From assembly GCF_003862475.1 (NCBI RefSeq), contig NZ_RRCO01000003.1:310001-374000 (forward strand): a stretch of 64,000 nucleotides of DNA. The letters are read 5' to 3'. The notes under the pieces were generated by a model that was not told where the DNA came from, did not search any database, and saw only the letters and a list, made by a program, of their open reading frames with translations. This document shows positions 4,966 through 14,332 of the stretch, in pieces (positions within the stretch are counted from its first letter, which is position 1; each line of letters begins with the position of its first letter). The DNA is from Lachnoanaerobaculum gingivalis. GTDB taxonomy: Bacteria; Bacillota; Clostridia; Lachnospirales; Lachnospiraceae. The translations under genes were made by a program, and so were the position numbers.

Positions 4966-6882
4966 TTATTTAAAATAATTTTCCCATTGTCCGGTTCCCT
5001 GATATAGGATATGAAGATATCCTAATTCAGCACCCGCAGACTTATCTGTTTCGTTGGTAGATATTTTTGCTTTTCCTCCTACATTTCGGATTTCAAAACG
5101 TTTCATGCCTACATTACTTTCATCCTGATCGTCAGAATCGCTTATATATACAGCCTTCAACTTCCCGTTCAAGTCATATTCGGCACCCCACAAAGTAACT
5201 ATATGATTACTCTTTGAAAACACTTTATGAGAAAGTCCTACTATGCCGCCATTACCCAAGATTTCTTTAAGAAGATTACTTAGTGATTCATAGTTTCCAC
5301 CATAAGTACGGTCTGTAAGTTTTTTCCCCTTGAAAACATCATAGAAGAATCCGCCGTTATTATTTGGGATAAGATCATCACTTTCTATATTTGTTCCACC
5401 CTTTGGGTTTGGAGTATATCCGTTAATAAATAAATCCATCAAAAGATCCGAATAAAACCCTCTCTCATTATATCCGTACAATACTTTATACAGCTCAAAT
5501 ATTTTACTGTTTTCCGGATTTTCAAAGGAAGTTTTTAAATCTGAAAGTTTTCTGTTGGCACGAATTATATCTCCGTTTTTTTCTATATATCTGTCAACAT
5601 ATTCAATATTTTGATCAAACCACCAATGAAGCATATTTGATGATACCGCTGCAAAGCAAAGATTTTTATCTATATCGATATTTCCACCGCTTCTTGTTTT
5701 ATTAACATCATACCATCCGTCTCCGCTTGAATATGGTACAGTATACATTACATAAGTATTCTTACCGCCTTGTGTAATCTCTTTATGAAAGTCTCCACCT
5801 TCTCCCATAACAGGTCCGTTAATTCCCTTTACCCATATGATGGTTCGTATTTCACCGTCTTCATTTGTATACTGAACAACATTGTCATTCTCTGAAGTAA
5901 TTAATGATTCTTTAAATCTCTCAGCCCTGTTTTGTGTACTCTCTTTTCTTTCTGCCTCAGGCTTTTTACTTTCCTTTGACTCTATATCCTTTTTTTCCTC
6001 TTCTTTCGGTATCTCGACATTTGAGGAAGTGGCCGGTTTTACAGGGCTCTCATTTGACTTTGTGGTATACTCTTTATTTGTATTTTTTTCTATGCTTCCG
6101 GCTTTCTCACTATTTCCTGTTTTATTATCTGCAATCAAGCTGTTATTTTTATCCGAGCTTAAGTCTTGTCTTGAACCTACCAAGTCTTCACTTCTTTTGG
6201 AACTTGAGTTTTCAGCCTTTCCTTTTGATTCTCCTAATATTCTGTTTTCTTCTCTTTTTTCTCCTTGATTTAAAAAGCTTGAGCCTCCGCTTTTACCGGA
6301 ACTTCCGCCCTTGCTTGAGCCTCCGCTTTTTCCGGAGCTTCCGCCCTTGCTTGAGCCTCCGCTTTTACCGCTTTTTTCCGAACTTCCTGCAACACTTGTT
6401 TTCTTTGCTGTATTCGATGAACTTTGTGAAGCATTACCTGTACTTATACCTTTACCGGCTTCATAATATTCTGCTCCGCTTTCATTAATCCATCTTCCTA
6501 AAGCATCAACTTTATATCCGCTGACAAGAGTATTTGAATACATCTTTCCGAATGTATTATTATCTATTCCCTCAAAATAATAGCAATATCCGTCTATCCA
6601 CTGCCATCCTGATAAAAGCACTCCCTCATTGGCAGTTTTAGAGCTGTCTAAAAAATACCAATTATTTGCGGCGTCCATATACCAACCGGTTTTTAAACTT
6701 CCGTCTTCATTAAAGAAATACCAATTATTATTTATCTGCTGCCAAGCCTTTAGAGCCTTATCTTCTTTATAATATTTCCAACTGTTATTTTCCTGTTTCC
6801 ATCCATCAACACCTGCATAGGCATTAAAGGACATCAACATAGTAAGTCCCAACAATACAGGACCGACTTTATATTTTTTCAT
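4966..6882 (-). CDS. Secreted IdeS/Mac-like cysteine protease (peptidase family C66) with wall-binding repeats
   Basis: Predicted extracellular endopeptidase of the streptococcal IdeS/Mac type, enzymes that cut immunoglobulin in the hinge. The 638 residues comprise a signal peptide (1-23), Trp/Tyr-rich choline-binding-like repeats (about 25-140), a low-complexity Ser/Gly/Lys and then charged linker (150-330), and a protease domain (340-638). The domain keeps the IdeS landmarks: DGWYDVNKT with the oxyanion Lys395, catalytic Cys409 followed by SSNMLHWWFDQN, LFINGY, NHIVTLWGAEYD with His560, and SDSD with Asp582/Asp584. Family membership is clear; the substrate (IgG, IgM or another protein) cannot be read from sequence. 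The repeats suggest non-covalent attachment to the cell wall. It lies 53 bases after the GH18 gene without an obvious terminator and may be co-transcribed. Confidence 0.85.
   Translation of the reverse strand: MKKYKVGPVLLGLTMLMSFNAYAGVDGWKQENNSWKYYKEDKALKAWQQINNNWYFFNEDGSLKTGWYMDAANNWYFLDSSKTANEGVLLSGWQWIDGYCYYFEGIDNNTFGKMYSNTLVSGYKVDALGRWINESGAEYYEAGKGISTGNASQSSSNTAKKTSVAGSSEKSGKSGGSSKGGSSGKSGGSSKGGSSGKSGGSSFLNQGEKREENRILGESKGKAENSSSKRSEDLVGSRQDLSSDKNNSLIADNKTGNSEKAGSIEKNTNKEYTTKSNESPVKPATSSNVEIPKEEEKKDIESKESKKPEAERKESTQNRAERFKESLITSENDNVVQYTNEDGEIRTIIWVKGINGPVMGEGGDFHKEITQGGKNTYVMYTVPYSSGDGWYDVNKTRSGGNIDIDKNLCFAAVSSNMLHWWFDQNIEYVDRYIEKNGDIIRANRKLSDLKTSFENPENSKIFELYKVLYGYNERGFYSDLLMDLFINGYTPNPKGGTNIESDDLIPNNNGGFFYDVFKGKKLTDRTYGGNYESLSNLLKEILGNGGIVGLSHKVFSKSNHIVTLWGAEYDLNGKLKAVYISDSDDQDESNVGMKRFEIRNVGGKAKISTNETDKSAGAELGYLHILYQGTGQWENYFK
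6282..6375. repeat. In-gene tandem repeat encoding a Gly-Ser-Lys linker
   Basis: Tandem copies of a unit encoding GGSSKGGSSGKS, roughly residues 169-202 of the C66 protease. The repeated codons make the tract prone to expansion or contraction, so linker length may differ between strains. Confidence 0.7.
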
Positions 6883-8752: not shown

Positions 8753-9157
8753 TCATGCCATAGTCTCATTATATTCTCCTGTTAAGAAAGTGGAGTTTTC
8801 CAAATATTCATTTGGGTATTTCTTTAGTAAAGTGTTTATATAGTCAATTACAACTGTCTGACTGCTTCTCTCTTCCATATATTCATTTAATATATTAAAT
8901 AATTCTTGTTTCTCTACAGCACTTGCATACTCTTTAAAATATCCCCACACATGAAGAACGGCATTGCTGAAATCTTTCCTACTCTCATTCATGTCTTTTA
9001 TTTTTTGTATGTTCTCTTTCAGAAATGAAACATCCAATTCATTCCCTTTCAGGTACTCTCTTAGCCCGAGATATTCCTTATGTGATTTACTCAGTACATA
9101 GTATTTATTTTTTGCCCACAGCTCTTCGCATTCTTTCCTTATGTTTTTATAACTCAT
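8753..9157 (-). CDS. DUF1722/YbgA-family protein
   Basis: A 134-residue cytoplasmic protein resembling the DUF1722 (YbgA) domain: an N-terminal LWAKNKYYVLSKSHKEY block, a central LHVWGYFK block and a C-terminal LLKKYPNEYLENSTFL block, in the same order as in YbgA. In many bacteria this domain is fused to DUF523; here it stands alone. The molecular function of the family is not settled, so none is assigned. It has its own promoter and is separated from its neighbours on both sides. Confidence 0.65.
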   Translation of the reverse strand: MSYKNIRKECEELWAKNKYYVLSKSHKEYLGLREYLKGNELDVSFLKENIQKIKDMNESRKDFSNAVLHVWGYFKEYASAVEKQELFNILNEYMEERSSQTVVIDYINTLLKKYPNEYLENSTFLTGEYNETMA

Positions 9158-9192
9158 ACTCTCTTTTCTTTCAAAATACTTGAATGTTTAAT

Positions 9193-9221
9193 ATTATAAT
9201 AAATTACGTAAGATTAAACAA
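9193..9221 (-). promoter_or_regulatory. Promoter of the DUF1722 gene
   Basis: On the minus strand TTGTTT (9216-9221) and a perfect TATAAT (9193-9198) are 17 bases apart, about 35 bases upstream of the start codon. Confidence 0.55.
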
Positions 9222-9311
9222 ATTCAAAACTAATATCGTCATATTGTATCAAATATAATTACAATAATATAGTCAAAGCTTAAAATAAATCTCTGACGAT
9301 TCAATATTTAC

Positions 9312-9783
9312 AATACAAAAACTGCCAAAATATATCTCATATCCTGACAGTTATACTTACATGGCCTTCTTTATTTTTCAATATGTTAGGTATCAATGAG
9401 CGGCTACCTAGTAAGCCTTTACTGTGACACTTCTTTCATTGATACTTAACAGTTATAAACCATTCTTTATTTGATTTTTTACATAGAGTCAGACGGTTTT
9501 TATGCAATATATAAAAACCTATCTGTCTGCAACTTATATATTCGCTACAACCTGCGTGGGCTTTGCTTTAAGTAGTATTTTTATATATTTTTGTATGTAA
9601 AAATCGTATTTGGGATCTTCAGATTGAATAATCATTTAGAATACTATGATTTCCTGTTCTACAGATTGACAGGTTTATTTCATAGAAATTGAATTTTAGA
9701 ATTTTAACTTTTATATTGGGGACTTTGATGGCTAAACTATCATTTATAAAAGTTATTTATAAATTTCTCCTTTCTCCGTCTTT
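9312..9783 (-). ncRNA. Candidate large structured non-coding RNA, about 470 nt
   Basis: The 744-base gap between the DUF1722 gene and the subtilase has no credible reading frame but a complete transcription unit on the minus strand: promoter at 9790-9818, intrinsic terminator at 9317-9351, and four strong hairpins between them. The arms are 9706-9715 with 9745-9754 (10 perfect pairs); 9644-9649 with 9680-9685 enclosing 9653-9657 with 9669-9673; 9495-9503 with 9511-9519 extended by 9490-9494 with 9525-9529; and 9385-9399 with 9436-9450 (14 of 15). Size, isolation and density of stems recall the large ornate RNAs of Firmicutes (ROOL, GOLLD, OLE class), but no family was recognised. A leader or decayed element cannot be excluded. 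Confidence 0.6.
9317..9351 (-). terminator. Terminator of the candidate structured RNA
   Basis: On the minus strand GACAGT's complement ACTGTC (9346-9351) pairs with GGCAGT (9321-9326), one U-G pair, and is followed by a run of five T. Confidence 0.6.
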
Positions 9784-9789
9784 ACATAA

Positions 9790-9818
9790 ATTATAACCCT
9801 CAAACGCTTTACACGCAA
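9790..9818 (-). promoter_or_regulatory. Promoter of the candidate structured RNA
   Basis: On the minus strand a perfect TATAAT (9790-9795) and TTGCGT (9813-9818) are separated by 17 bases. No open reading frame follows. Predicted start of the transcript is near 9783. Confidence 0.6.
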
Positions 9819-9861
9819 TATGGAATAGTTGTTCGGTCGATATATGGCAAGATAGATTGTG

Positions 9862-9897
9862 TAAAATAAAAAGAGAGCCCTAAACAGCTCTCCTTCT
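9862..9897 (-). terminator. Terminator of the subtilase gene
   Basis: On the minus strand GAGAGC and GCTCTC form a stem directly followed by TTTTTATTTT, just after the stop codon of the subtilase gene at 9902. It separates that operon from the structured RNA. Confidence 0.8.
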
Positions 9898-9901
9898 TCT
9901 A

Positions 9902-12900
9902 CTAATTATTTTTTGCTCTATAGATGTATATGGTCTTTTCAGATTTATTTCCGGCAAGATCTATGGCACTTATTTTTATACTGTTTTGCCCCTCGTTTAG
10001 CGGAACTTCTATTTGTGTAACTATCTGCGTAGTATTACCGTCTTTACCTTCAATATAAGAAATTGAGGTTTTATCATCAGTACCTATAAGTGAGTCTCCG
10101 TTATAAAGATTTAATTTAAATGAATTATCACGTGAGCGAATCTTTATTTTTACCATATCGGAATCAAGTTCTCTTTCATATACCTTATAATCAATAAAAG
10201 GATTTATCTTATCGTAGAACAATCTTCTTACCATACTTGCCGATTTTCCGTTTTTAGTACTTACCTCAACTTTTATATTAACATTAAATGCTTCAAGCTT
10301 CAGTTTACTTTCAAAAGAATAGGCCTCGCCCTTATATATTACATTTCCATTTTTTCTATAGATAATATTGCTTTTTACAAAATCCTCTTTTCCTATATTT
10401 ATTGGACTTGAAAGTTCATTTCCGTCATTATCTACAAGCTTTATTTGCACACTTTCTACACTGTCATCCTCGTCCACATATCCTACAAAACCTGATACAT
10501 CTATCTGCTTCTCTTCACCTTCTGTATTGCCAAGTACATCAAAAAACTCAGGTGTTTTAAGGAATACTGCAGGATAGGGTTTCTTTTCTGCATTTGACGC
10601 AGTAGCATTATTAATTGTGATATCTGTAATACCTGCTTCTTCCATGCTCTCATGAGTATTTTGCATAGGCTTTCCGTCTCTAAATACTGTTGTAATATCA
10701 AAGCTTGTTTCAATAGGATTTATTGTAAATTCATAGTAAAGCTTGTCCTCATCATATTTAAAATTGTATTTTTTTGATATTTCGGAATTTACTTTATTAT
10801 CCAAAATAATATTTTCTTCGATATTATCATGTTTCAAAGTAAGTTTATGCAAATGTGACTCTTCATCCGCCAGCTTTATCCTAATCACCGCTTCCTTTTC
10901 TATCAGACTGTAAGTCATATCATCAAGCTTTATATCGTTTACATAAACGCTTGCATTTTTATTGCTTATATAGTCAAAAAAGTTAAGGAAATTAATTTGA
11001 TTATAATTGCCTTCTCTGACCTCTGAAAGCGTGGTCCTGCTTTTATTATCCATATAGTCAACGGCATCTATTATAAGATCTGAAGTATCTGTGAAATACG
11101 GACAATGTACTTCAATATTTGAATTTCTGTAACCGTTGGTATAAACATATACTTCCCCCCTTGCAGTTGGGCTGTCAGGTACTGCTTCCAAAGGTATATT
11201 CAGCTTGCCGTCTTCAACTTTTACAAGCTCTTTTCCATCCTTCATAGGCTCATCTTGGAATCTTATAACAAAGGATTTTCCATACCTTATACTTGTATCG
11301 GCCTTATCATCCTGTGTATATCTTATTGACTGCAAATATACATTCTCTATACCTATGCCCTTGTCATGAACATTAAATACTATCTCCTTCATATTGCCGT
11401 CAATATCATTTACCTGCACTTCATCAGCGGTACTTAGATTAGGAGCCATGCTGTCCACACGTACAGGGAATTTATAGACCTGTTCTCCGTTGCCTCCTAC
11501 ATTATTAGTATTAAGCTTTGCCTTTATACAATATATATACTCGGCACCGTCCTCTGCAATTCCTTCGCCAATTTTCCCGTCCCATACCGACTCCGGCATA
11601 AACTTAAAGCTTTTATTGACTGAAAGTCTGCTAAGCTTCCTTACCTGCTTTGAAACTCCTAAAACTCTTAAAGTTTCCTCTGTCTTAGCATCAAGTATTG
11701 AATACTCTATCTGCTCCATATTTCTGAGTGGTGCTATTCTTGCCGCCACATCGGGATAGTACTTACTGTTCGGTGAAAAATATATTTCATTATTGTACAG
11801 TGGAAGTTTAAGCATCATACTTGTTCCAAGCATTGAAGAGCTTACTCCCGCATTTTTATTTACAAAAAATTGTACATTTCTTTTTTCACTTCCAAGTTCA
11901 GGAAGCTGAAATGCATCTATAGCTTTTTGTTTGCCCCAATCTCCATAAAATCCGAGGAAAGGTATACTAAGATCTGATATACCATCTTTGTCCTTAAGGC
12001 TTATAAAACCTTCTATAAAGTTGTCCTCTTCAAAGTTTACGGCATCCGAGTAATCCATAGTAAAATCTATACTTGCTGATGAATGTGCTTCCACGCTTAT
12101 CTCTCTGCTTATATTAGACTCATTTGAATGTAATATTTCAGATCTTTGGAGCCTGTATTTACCGTCTGTAGGCTCATAAAGTGCAACCGAATTTATATCA
12201 TAGCTTTTTGTACTGTCTCCAAAGTTTTCAAGACTAAGTCTTACATCAAAACTTTTATCCTTAAGTTCTTTAAGCTCAAGCTTTCCGTCGGCTATATTGT
12301 CATTGGTTCCTTCCGCCCTTACTACTACAGTGGTTTTTAATGCATTTTCAATATTTAGAGCACCGCTTCCCTGTTGTCTTACAAAATAGGGTATATCTTC
12401 AAAAATCCCCTCATCCTTTAAAGGAGTGGCAGTATTCATAAGTAAAAGTTTTATAAATTCAGAACTGTTATCTGTTTGTATATTCTTTGCCTTTATATAT
12501 TGTTTAAGTATAGCTGTAGCTCCGGTTACCTGAGGAGCCGCCATGGAAGTACCGGACATATCCTTATACTTATCGTCTTCAACGCTTGAGTATATATGTC
12601 CTCCAGGAGCGGTTATCTCCGGCTTAATTCTAAGATCGGGAGTGGGCCCCCACGAAGAAAACTTTGAAACACTTCCTGCCGCTACATTGTCGACATCAGT
12701 CATTTCAGTAAATATTTCAGGTCTCAGATTATTATTATAACCGTATTCCTCCATTAACTTATCATAGGTACTTCTTTTTATACGGATACAGGTAAGCTTT
12801 CCCGCATTACCGGGAACTTCAAGATTTCCGCCTATCTGCTCAGCCATGCTCCTGTTATTGTAAAAAACAATGGCGGCAGGTTTTAATTCGGCTATTGCCT

Positions 12901-14332
12901 CAAGCTTATCCCCGAATCCTAAACTGTCCCTTGTGGTAGGAATCTCAAAGAGTACCAGTTTACCTTCTATATTTTCTTTTTTAATAAGCTCTTGCTTAGC
13001 ATTTTTTAAATCAAATATATCCGCACTTATTATCTTTTTCGGATTTTCTCCTTTATGCAAATCCATCTCTTCATTTACATAAGCATCCCAGCTGTCTTTC
13101 CACCTTATGACATACATATGTCTTTTGGTATTTTCCATGGATGCAACTGCTATAGTTCCTTCATTTACAGCAGGATTTGCAATTAAAGCGGTATCATAAT
13201 TCTCTTTTAAAGGTTCTACATTATTTATATTTCCGGAAGTAATATTTCCGTCATTACCGGCAGCTACCGAAATTACTATTCCGGCTTTTCTTGCCTTTTC
13301 TATAACTTCATTTTCCGGATAAGCTCTGTTCTCCATTGAAAATCCGGCTGCCGTTCCCAGGCTTAAGTTTATTACATCAGCCTTTAATGTTATAGCATCA
13401 TCCAAGGCCTTCAACCAAATATCGGTAAATGTTGTAGGATACTCAAGGTCATCTGAAAACACCTTAAGTGCAAGTATTTGTGCATTAGGCGCTACTCCGA
13501 AAATACTGTTTTCGACATCATTGGCTGCAGCTATTCCAGATACATGCATACCGTGCATTACACCGAAACTGTTACGTAAGTTCTTATTAAAATCATAATA
13601 ATTATAGCCATAAGGTACTTTATCCGAATAATAAGAGCCCTTTAATCCGTTTTCAGCTATTATCTTTTCTATATCTGCCTTTGTATACATAGGATGTACC
13701 GATTCATCCAGTCTAAGTGCTTTATGTCTGTAATCTATACCTGAGTCTATTACTGCAATAACGCTGCCCTCGCCCTTGTAGCCAAGCGTATTCCACGCAT
13801 ATCCCGAACCTATTATACTGTTTGAAGACTTAAGATAAGGTCTTTGAAACTCCTGTGATACATACACGCTTTTTACTCCGGGAAGCGCTTCTATTTTTTC
13901 TATTTCAGTCGCATCGGCACTTAATGATATACCGTTAAATACTGTATCATAGTGCCTTATCTCCTTAAAATCCGCCTTTATATCCTCATTTTTTATATCT
14001 GTTACAAGCTTGTCCTGATCTTCTTTCAACTCCTGCTTTTTTTCATCTATAAAGGAATCATCCAGTTTATCATAGTCCATATCTTTATTTATGGCTTCTT
14101 CTATCAAGGAGTCCTTATCAAGCTCTATTATAAGCCTAAGCTCTTTTGGCTTATCTTCATTTTTTTCGGCATCTATATCAGCCGAATTTAATTTTTTATC
14201 TGCCTCTTTTACATACTCTGAAACTCTATCCCCGTTATTTTGTGCCGCAAATCCCGGCTTAGCTGTAGAAACCAAGGGATTTATAAGAAGTACGGCACAA
14301 AACAAGGCAAGTTTTTTACTTATTCTATTCAT
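9902..14332 (-). CDS. Secreted subtilase (S8) of the C5a peptidase/lactocepin type
   Basis: Large extracellular serine endoprotease, 1476 residues. Visible parts: signal peptide (1-30), an inhibitor-I9-like propeptide (about 64-162), an S8 catalytic domain with Asp196 (VIDSG), His260 (HGMHVSG), Asn360 and Ser596 (SGTSMAAP), a protease-associated insert (about 430-530), then a long beta-rich tail with Fn3-like and Ig-like segments ending near residue 1470. The HGMHVSG form and PA insert are typical of streptococcal C5a peptidase and lactococcal cell-envelope proteinases. No LPXTG sorting signal or membrane tail is visible, so attachment may depend on another protein, perhaps the SLH-like protein encoded 8 bases upstream. 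All catalytic residues are intact. The substrate is unknown. Confidence 0.9.
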   Translation of the reverse strand: MNRISKKLALFCAVLLINPLVSTAKPGFAAQNNGDRVSEYVKEADKKLNSADIDAEKNEDKPKELRLIIELDKDSLIEEAINKDMDYDKLDDSFIDEKKQELKEDQDKLVTDIKNEDIKADFKEIRHYDTVFNGISLSADATEIEKIEALPGVKSVYVSQEFQRPYLKSSNSIIGSGYAWNTLGYKGEGSVIAVIDSGIDYRHKALRLDESVHPMYTKADIEKIIAENGLKGSYYSDKVPYGYNYYDFNKNLRNSFGVMHGMHVSGIAAANDVENSIFGVAPNAQILALKVFSDDLEYPTTFTDIWLKALDDAITLKADVINLSLGTAAGFSMENRAYPENEVIEKARKAGIVISVAAGNDGNITSGNINNVEPLKENYDTALIANPAVNEGTIAVASMENTKRHMYVIRWKDSWDAYVNEEMDLHKGENPKKIISADIFDLKNAKQELIKKENIEGKLVLFEIPTTRDSLGFGDKLEAIAELKPAAIVFYNNRSMAEQIGGNLEVPGNAGKLTCIRIKRSTYDKLMEEYGYNNNLRPEIFTEMTDVDNVAAGSVSKFSSWGPTPDLRIKPEITAPGGHIYSSVEDDKYKDMSGTSMAAPQVTGATAILKQYIKAKNIQTDNSSEFIKLLLMNTATPLKDEGIFEDIPYFVRQQGSGALNIENALKTTVVVRAEGTNDNIADGKLELKELKDKSFDVRLSLENFGDSTKSYDINSVALYEPTDGKYRLQRSEILHSNESNISREISVEAHSSASIDFTMDYSDAVNFEEDNFIEGFISLKDKDGISDLSIPFLGFYGDWGKQKAIDAFQLPELGSEKRNVQFFVNKNAGVSSSMLGTSMMLKLPLYNNEIYFSPNSKYYPDVAARIAPLRNMEQIEYSILDAKTEETLRVLGVSKQVRKLSRLSVNKSFKFMPESVWDGKIGEGIAEDGAEYIYCIKAKLNTNNVGGNGEQVYKFPVRVDSMAPNLSTADEVQVNDIDGNMKEIVFNVHDKGIGIENVYLQSIRYTQDDKADTSIRYGKSFVIRFQDEPMKDGKELVKVEDGKLNIPLEAVPDSPTARGEVYVYTNGYRNSNIEVHCPYFTDTSDLIIDAVDYMDNKSRTTLSEVREGNYNQINFLNFFDYISNKNASVYVNDIKLDDMTYSLIEKEAVIRIKLADEESHLHKLTLKHDNIEENIILDNKVNSEISKKYNFKYDEDKLYYEFTINPIETSFDITTVFRDGKPMQNTHESMEEAGITDITINNATASNAEKKPYPAVFLKTPEFFDVLGNTEGEEKQIDVSGFVGYVDEDDSVESVQIKLVDNDGNELSSPINIGKEDFVKSNIIYRKNGNVIYKGEAYSFESKLKLEAFNVNIKVEVSTKNGKSASMVRRLFYDKINPFIDYKVYERELDSDMVKIKIRSRDNSFKLNLYNGDSLIGTDDKTSISYIEGKDGNTTQIVTQIEVPLNEGQNSIKISAIDLAGNKSEKTIYIYRAKNN

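Follow-up and report, generated by a model that had tools for sequence, protein, structure and literature searches.

A stand-alone structured RNA gene of Lachnoanaerobaculum and its possible pairing with the rpsF-ssb-rpsR operon

What occupies a long intergenic space in which no protein seems to be encoded? In a genome of Lachnoanaerobaculum (Lachnospiraceae), 744 bases separate an S8 subtilase gene from a DUF1722 gene, and they contain no open reading frame of at least 40 amino acids able to fill them. We studied this space within a stretch of 64,000 nucleotides (the window), whose genome is called G000 here, and compared it with five other genomes of the genus (G001-G005). The questions were whether the space holds an RNA gene and, if so, on what its RNA might act.

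The transcription unit and its conservation

The unit and its surroundings comprise the following features.

8753-9157, minus strand: DUF1722 gene
9317..9352, minus strand: intrinsic terminator, a stem at 9352-9320 followed by five T, from the terminator scan and alignment folding
9317..9783, minus strand: inferred transcript of about 467 nt, both ends inferred from the positions of promoter and terminator; conserved in six of six genomes
9790..9818, minus strand: promoter TTGCGT-17-TATAAT, from the sequence
9828..9866, minus strand: conserved block upstream of the promoter
9873-9892, strand not assigned: terminator-like hairpin separating the RNA gene from the subtilase gene
9902-14332, minus strand: S8 subtilase gene

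In the promoter, the -35 box TTGCGT (9818-9813) and the -10 box TATAAT (9795-9790) lie on the minus strand with a spacer of 17 nt. A promoter scan of the region did not list this pair, and promoter-like matches were no more frequent than expected (12 found, shuffle mean 12.8); support for the promoter comes from TTATAAT and ATTGC, which are identical in all six genomes. Terminator-like sites number two in the region against 0.6 expected. The hairpin at 9873-9892 is listed by the scan on the plus strand, and a T run also trails it on the minus strand.

Every one of the six genomes examined carries the RNA gene, in one full copy and at 71-97% identity to the window. Conservation sets in near 9866, roughly 48 bases ahead of the -35 box, and runs to the terminator, despite differing neighbours: the gene stands between queT and GH18 in G001 and G003, and behind the subtilase gene in G000, G002, G004 and G005; in G002, G004 and G005 a hicB-like gene follows it. 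The block that precedes the promoter is present in all six genomes, next to either of two upstream genes, and is perhaps the site of a regulator; as a shared operator it was rejected, there being one site per genome at up to three mismatches in 24. Between G000 and G001 the 5' domain is identical at 70 of 78 positions, while the neighbouring GH18 genes agree at only 63 of 168 fourfold-degenerate sites. The segment between helices P2 and Hc, described below, agrees at 38 of 108 positions, so conservation is uneven.

No reading frame was found to be kept across the six genomes on either strand. The short frames on the RNA strand (33 codons in G000, 74 in G003) are broken elsewhere, by the lack of an ATG in G001 and by frameshifts in G005 and G003. 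Opposite the RNA, plus-strand positions 9718-9798 read GGGGA-ATG-GCT-AAA and start a frame of 22 codons preceded by a good ribosome site; in G001 the frame is shifted, and in G003 its ATG is missing. Coding on either strand was therefore rejected.

The locus is thus well supported as a stand-alone noncoding RNA gene of Lachnoanaerobaculum with a structured product of about 467 nt, as shown computationally by its presence in six genomes, its promoter and terminator, the lack of a conserved frame, selection, and one well-supported long-range helix. Judged by the sequence comparison, the gene is under strong selection, and it is very probably functional. The original prediction, made from the letters of the window, had named a structured RNA that stands free and has a promoter and terminator of its own, citing an absence of coding frames across the 744 bases, the minus-strand TTGCGT-17-TATAAT, a terminator with five T and isolation by terminators from the subtilase gene. 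These observations were borne out at the coordinates above, and the six-genome comparison supports the proposal as a whole. The prediction had also suggested a search of Rfam, and either membership in a class like OLE, ROOL and GOLLD or a new class. At gathering score no Rfam family was found in the whole window; the region 9100-9950, searched at E up to 10, returned six weak matches, all to unrelated eukaryotic or Listeria families. The OLE, ROOL, GOLLD and raiA families were absent at gathering score from the window and at E<=10 from 9100-9950. Membership in the OLE/ROOL/GOLLD-like class is accordingly not supported, and a new class was the better half of the guess: an RNA gene from a human oral genus goes unmatched among the 4227 families of Rfam.

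The distribution of the gene is narrow in the collections searched. A 19-base gapped pattern drawn from two invariant segments matched five contigs in an 84,980-species set, which may omit the window's own genome; all belong to the genus or to an oral-taxon relative (L. saburreum DSM 3986, L. orale DSM 24553, sp. OBRC5-5, oral taxon 107 F0167 and sp. ICM7). The same pattern had no match in viral contigs, and blastn gave none in plasmids and phages. Across 295 genomes of the order, blastn returned short matches in 14 other genomes (E 3e-5 to 8e-4). Two covariance models (R1 and R2), each run on 397 family genomes that include just three of the six genus members, matched strongly only in those three; weak matches outside the genus occurred in 11 genomes with R1 and in one with R2. 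Weak-match loci (L007, L015-L028, L058-L071 and L075) were checked for four motifs and held, outside the genus, isolated partial matches only; L007 was rejected as a homologue and read as the promoter and ribosome site of another gene. Within these searches the RNA appears restricted to Lachnoanaerobaculum, and "genus-specific" is a statement on the searches, because an exact pattern misses diverged relatives. Among titles and opening lines of abstracts in the open-licence literature, supplements aside, on the genus and on structured-RNA catalogues, we found no paper on this RNA; one human-microbiome RNA catalogue lists candidates 27-219 bases long, and its main text makes no mention of the genus (PMC8040213).

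Fold and invariant segments

The predicted structural elements, all on the minus strand, are these.

9767..9775, minus strand: AGAAAGGAG, a Shine-Dalgarno-like 5' end without a conserved start codon and a proposed stabiliser; invariant in six of six genomes
9705..9755, minus strand: hairpin P2, TAACTTTTATA / TATAAAAGTTA, formable in six of six
9718..9726, minus strand: AAAGUCCCC, an invariant segment in the P2 loop that is complementary to the rpsR Shine-Dalgarno sequence
9594..9605, minus strand: 5' arm of helix Hc
9506..9589, minus strand: possible helix Hd, with arms 9578-9589 and 9506-9517
9488..9530, minus strand: hairpin of the original prediction
9473..9485, minus strand: 3' arm of helix Hc
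9390..9445, minus strand: hairpin P7, GTATCAATG / CATTGATAC, formable in six of six, with two invariant loop segments
9422..9430, minus strand: invariant GUGUCACAG, complement of the start of the rpsF leader, from the six-genome comparison
9402..9412, minus strand: invariant ACUAGGUAGCC, containing ACUAGGUA, which is complementary to a site at the 3' end of rpsF, from the six-genome comparison

When the 507-nt stretch was folded against dinucleotide shuffles, the minus strand gave z -3.2 (0 of 100 shuffles as good) and the plus strand z -2.9 (1 of 100); the plus strand being nearly as good, the strand is not given by folding energy alone. RNAalifold on four divergent sequences favoured the RNA strand, with z -6.7 against -1.4, and with the terminator left out -2.9 against -0.5. 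The terminator itself is strongly supported by alignment folding (z -10.3, 0 of 300 shuffles), and among the other subdomains (4/6 sequences) none stands out: the 5' domain gave z -0.24, the Hc domain -1.2 and the P7 part -0.19. Automatic alignments misplace the arms of Hc and P7, and a pair counter was for this reason left unused.

The one well-supported long-range helix is Hc, in which 9605-9594 pairs with 9485-9473 to close a domain of about 130 nt. With the domain folded alone, its mean pairing is 0.87-0.98 in all six genomes, and end-to-end pairing of this kind was reached by 1, 0, 0 and 1 of 200 shuffles in four representatives. In full-length folds Hc reaches 0.79-0.97 in G005, G001 and G003 and 0.07-0.59 in G000, G004 and G002; insertions in both arms give G005 one extra pair. 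P2 has a full-length pairing probability of 0.83-0.96 in five genomes and 0.17 in G005, and the 12-nt surroundings of AAAGUCCCC have a mean unpaired probability of 0.74-0.86. For P7, whose stem can form 8-9 pairs in all six genomes, the full-length probability is 0.91-1.00 in four and 0.25 in G002 and G003.

Helix Hd is a weaker candidate. It can form in all six genomes, with double-sided changes from A-U to G-C in a hand alignment; that pair table was fitted to the structure and is biased towards it, and position 5 is doubtful. Hd costs 1.5-8.7 kcal/mol relative to the minimum and competes with the hairpin at 9488-9530. Its formation would free CCGUCU to pair with the invariant 5' AGACGG as a pseudoknot. 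The structure of the RNA is partly supported, and so are the strong hairpins first proposed: the terminator and the 9390-9445 stem are formable in all six genomes, and the 9488-9530 hairpin is present only in the four closer ones (G000, G004, G002 and G005) and absent in G001 and G003. An A-C mismatch that had been held against the minus orientation of the 9385-9450 stem belongs to a pair that falls outside the conserved helix.

The 5' end may serve to stabilise the transcript. Shine-Dalgarno-like 5' ends are reported to be able to protect transcripts in Gram-positive bacteria (PMC3997798), and AGAAAGGAG has the STAB-SD arrangement of a strong 5' Shine-Dalgarno sequence without a start codon; its predicted duplex with the 16S 3' end is worth -13.5 kcal/mol. 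By analogy, AGAAAGGAG would shield the RNA from decay.

Complementarity to the rpsF-ssb-rpsR operon

The RNA contains three invariant segments, each an exact complement of an invariant site in the rpsF-ssb-rpsR operon: the start of the leader (9 nt), the 3' end of rpsF (8 nt) and the rpsR Shine-Dalgarno sequence (9 nt). The rpsF leader starts with CTGTGACAC, the complement of GUGUCACAG, and the end of rpsF carries TACCTAGT, the complement of ACUAGGUA, both invariant in the six genomes; GGGGACUUU precedes the rpsR start in each of them and faces AAAGUCCCC. In five of the six, GCCAU of the RNA also pairs with the rpsR start codon region AUGGC, G003 lacking GCCAU. Searched for exactly in 26 other Lachnospiraceae genera, the leader site occurred in one and the rpsF-end and rpsR sites in none. 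The rpsR starts of other genera have AGGAGG-type sites; GGGGACTTT was found at none of 27 other rpsR starts (two of them misassigned) and in none of 26 upstream stretches of 1.5 kb from other genera. The leader site is partly ancestral, which counts against the operon as target: CTGTGACA is also present in two other genera, and the site is near-ancestral in that L113 differs from it by one base. In the genus and in the other Lachnospiraceae examined, an element CCTTGC ... GGCCAGAGACC is kept in the rpsF leader. Rfam, run on the rpsF operon region at E up to 1, gave no match.

Whether such matches could arise by chance was assessed in several ways. When invariant words were restricted to those with at least three G/C, two 9-nt matches fell in the G000 operon, which is 1127 nt long. 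Two of 820 control windows also reached two: the RNA locus itself, and a window whose matches come from two overlapping 5'-end words; without the G/C filter, 73 of 820 windows reached two 9-nt matches. Three 8-nt matches occurred in 7 of 820 windows with the filter and 192 of 820 without it. With sense words the operon gave two 8-nt matches and no 9-nt match, and with reversed and complemented words no match. In sliding windows over 928,000 nt, the operon and three other places outside the RNA locus held two matches within 1127 nt. The mean of 0.06 matches per 1127 nt implies a chance of about 6% that an operon selected for its first match also holds a second, and less than this given that the second match falls in the leader.

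A search for GGGGACTTT-ATG in the six genomes found 19 places: five at the RNA locus, six at the rpsR start (one per genome) and eight others, which lie inside frames of 417-880 amino acids. A backward control pattern occurred at 10 places, so GGGGACTTT-ATG is not enriched in general, and this counts against the target. The stricter pattern with ATGGC was found in 9 of 79 other family genomes, where one or two places resemble gene starts.

Duplex energies rank the rpsR site first, at -23.5 kcal/mol (-18.8 in G003), followed by the leader (-15.9 to -18.6) and the rpsF end (-12.5 to -17.1). Against 415 sampled start regions the same loop reached at best -22.6 kcal/mol, behind rpsR, and the value for G003 falls inside the best dozen of this background. 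The 415 do not include the rpsR start, whose place seems to have been taken by a longer overlapping frame; the rpsR energy was computed separately. Since a whole genome has several times 415 starts, it would hold some as good as rpsR. Another reason for the sequence of the rpsR site is a small hairpin, AAAG-GGGA-CUUU, that it can form, and neither the loop nor its rpsR target ever varies across the six genomes, which again counts against the target.

Possible roles and neighbouring features

Our best reading, a tentative one drawn from sequence, is that the RNA acts in trans as a stabilised, RNAIII-like riboregulator of the S6/SSB/S18 operon; as its target, rpsF-ssb-rpsR is plausible though unproven. 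The exposed invariant segments would base-pair with the operon mRNA, AAAGUCCCC covering the rpsR Shine-Dalgarno sequence and GUGUCACAG binding the first bases of the rpsF leader. The expected effect would be less S18 translation, or an altered S6:S18 feedback, governed by the RNA's own promoter. A fuller version, in which a large genus-specific RNA took over trans control of the operon by binding the start of the leader, the end of rpsF ahead of ssb and the ribosome-binding site of rpsR, with the rpsR Shine-Dalgarno sequence shifted from the AGGAGG type to one that can be covered, is rather doubtful. If the target is true, a trans-encoded RNA would control a ribosomal-protein operon whose known regulation is otherwise feedback by the proteins it encodes, and the ribosome-binding site of rpsR would have changed along with a lineage-specific RNA.

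RNAIII of Staphylococcus aureus (514 nt) and the Rsa RNAs are described as binding Shine-Dalgarno sequences through unpaired UCCC loops (PMC3861533). The RNA studied here resembles them, as far as they are described there, in standing alone, in its RNAIII-like length, in its several hairpins and in an unpaired UCCC-type loop, namely AAAGUCCCC, complementary to a Shine-Dalgarno sequence at rpsR. It differs from RNAIII in having one such loop instead of three and in matching no Rfam family; neither an agr locus among the immediate neighbours nor a conserved frame like delta-hemolysin was found. The operon itself has a described regulator in the S6:S18 feedback element of the rpsF leader (PMC4647458), which is reported as a cis element in the mRNA that binds protein, whereas the RNA here is trans-encoded. 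FoxJ, an sRNA of Fusobacterium nucleatum with essential C residues in its seed, is reported to act on the rpsF-rpsR polycistron (PMC11005410); likened by description only, it differs in that it raises the gene after rpsR, has little effect on rpsF-rpsR and belongs to another phylum.

Instead of carrying antisense seeds, the RNA could be a structural RNA of the OLE/ROOL/GOLLD type, a scaffold of a ribonucleoprotein or a multimer with its own fold, whose invariant loops make tertiary, protein or intermolecular contacts. The genes for those RNAs are described as large and isolated, occurring in Firmicutes or their phages, and the RNAs as structured, some with symmetric kissing loops (PMC12286853), and the present gene is like them, to judge from that account, in size, isolation and invariant loops; its CUAG and GUG-U-CAC are self-complementary, and the pseudoknot AGACGG:CCGUCU is possible in all six genomes. 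It is nevertheless smaller than they are, restricted to one genus and unmatched in Rfam, it has fewer firm helices than such RNAs lead one to expect, and its subdomains, the terminator apart, fold in alignment no better than shuffles. ROOL and GOLLD are associated with phages or prophages near tRNA genes; among the neighbours here, which are subtilase, DUF1722, GH18, queT or hicB, neither a tRNA island nor a phage setting was seen. The complementarity to the operon would, moreover, have to be chance, and we regard this reading as unlikely. Another comparable RNA is a long, abundant one of 520 nt in Lactobacillus salivarius, reported as lineage-restricted and without known function (PMC5643018); this Firmicutes RNA is megaplasmid-borne and species-specific, and the two are likened by description only.

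A trans-acting regulatory RNA with other targets, for which the operon matches are chance, is less probable again. A UCCC loop can reach any G-rich Shine-Dalgarno sequence, and sampled start regions come near the rpsR energy (-22.6, -22.3 and -20.9 kcal/mol); two 9-nt matches and one 8-nt match nevertheless fall in a single operon, and two of the sites are missing from 26 other genera. That the locus is the mRNA of a small protein or the remains of a mobile element is very unlikely: short frames exist on both strands and in three genomes two copies of the RNA tail flank hicB, but the frames are not kept, each genome has one full copy and selection acts on the RNA.

The hicB-like gene (PF15919; L033 1408-2165 in G004, L031 in G002, L034 in G005) has no hicA in its spacer. 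Behind it the final 70-130 nt of the RNA, terminator included, are repeated. Neither hicB nor this repeat is present in G000, which does retain the flank of the repeat, and the arrangement looks like an insertion or deletion between direct repeats. HicB was dropped as a partner of the RNA, for it has its own promoter and stands beside the RNA in three of six genomes; only distant relatives (30-34%) occur in G000 and G003, and none in G001. Its promoter region (L033 about 1440-1480, with matching regions in L031 and L034) contains TTGACA together with repeats of GTACG, which may be a site of autoregulation.

Elsewhere in the window, 4966-6882 encodes a protein with a Mac-1 domain (an IgG-cleaving protease family) and choline-binding repeats. 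A 75-base segment comprising the DUF1722 leader and the start of the gene (9102-9176) recurs at 83% identity at G000:C1:526793-526867, and similar copies of it occur in G002, G003 and G005. In G004 a pyrimidine dimer DNA glycosylase-like gene (PF03013; L033 2646-3014) follows the DUF1722 gene.
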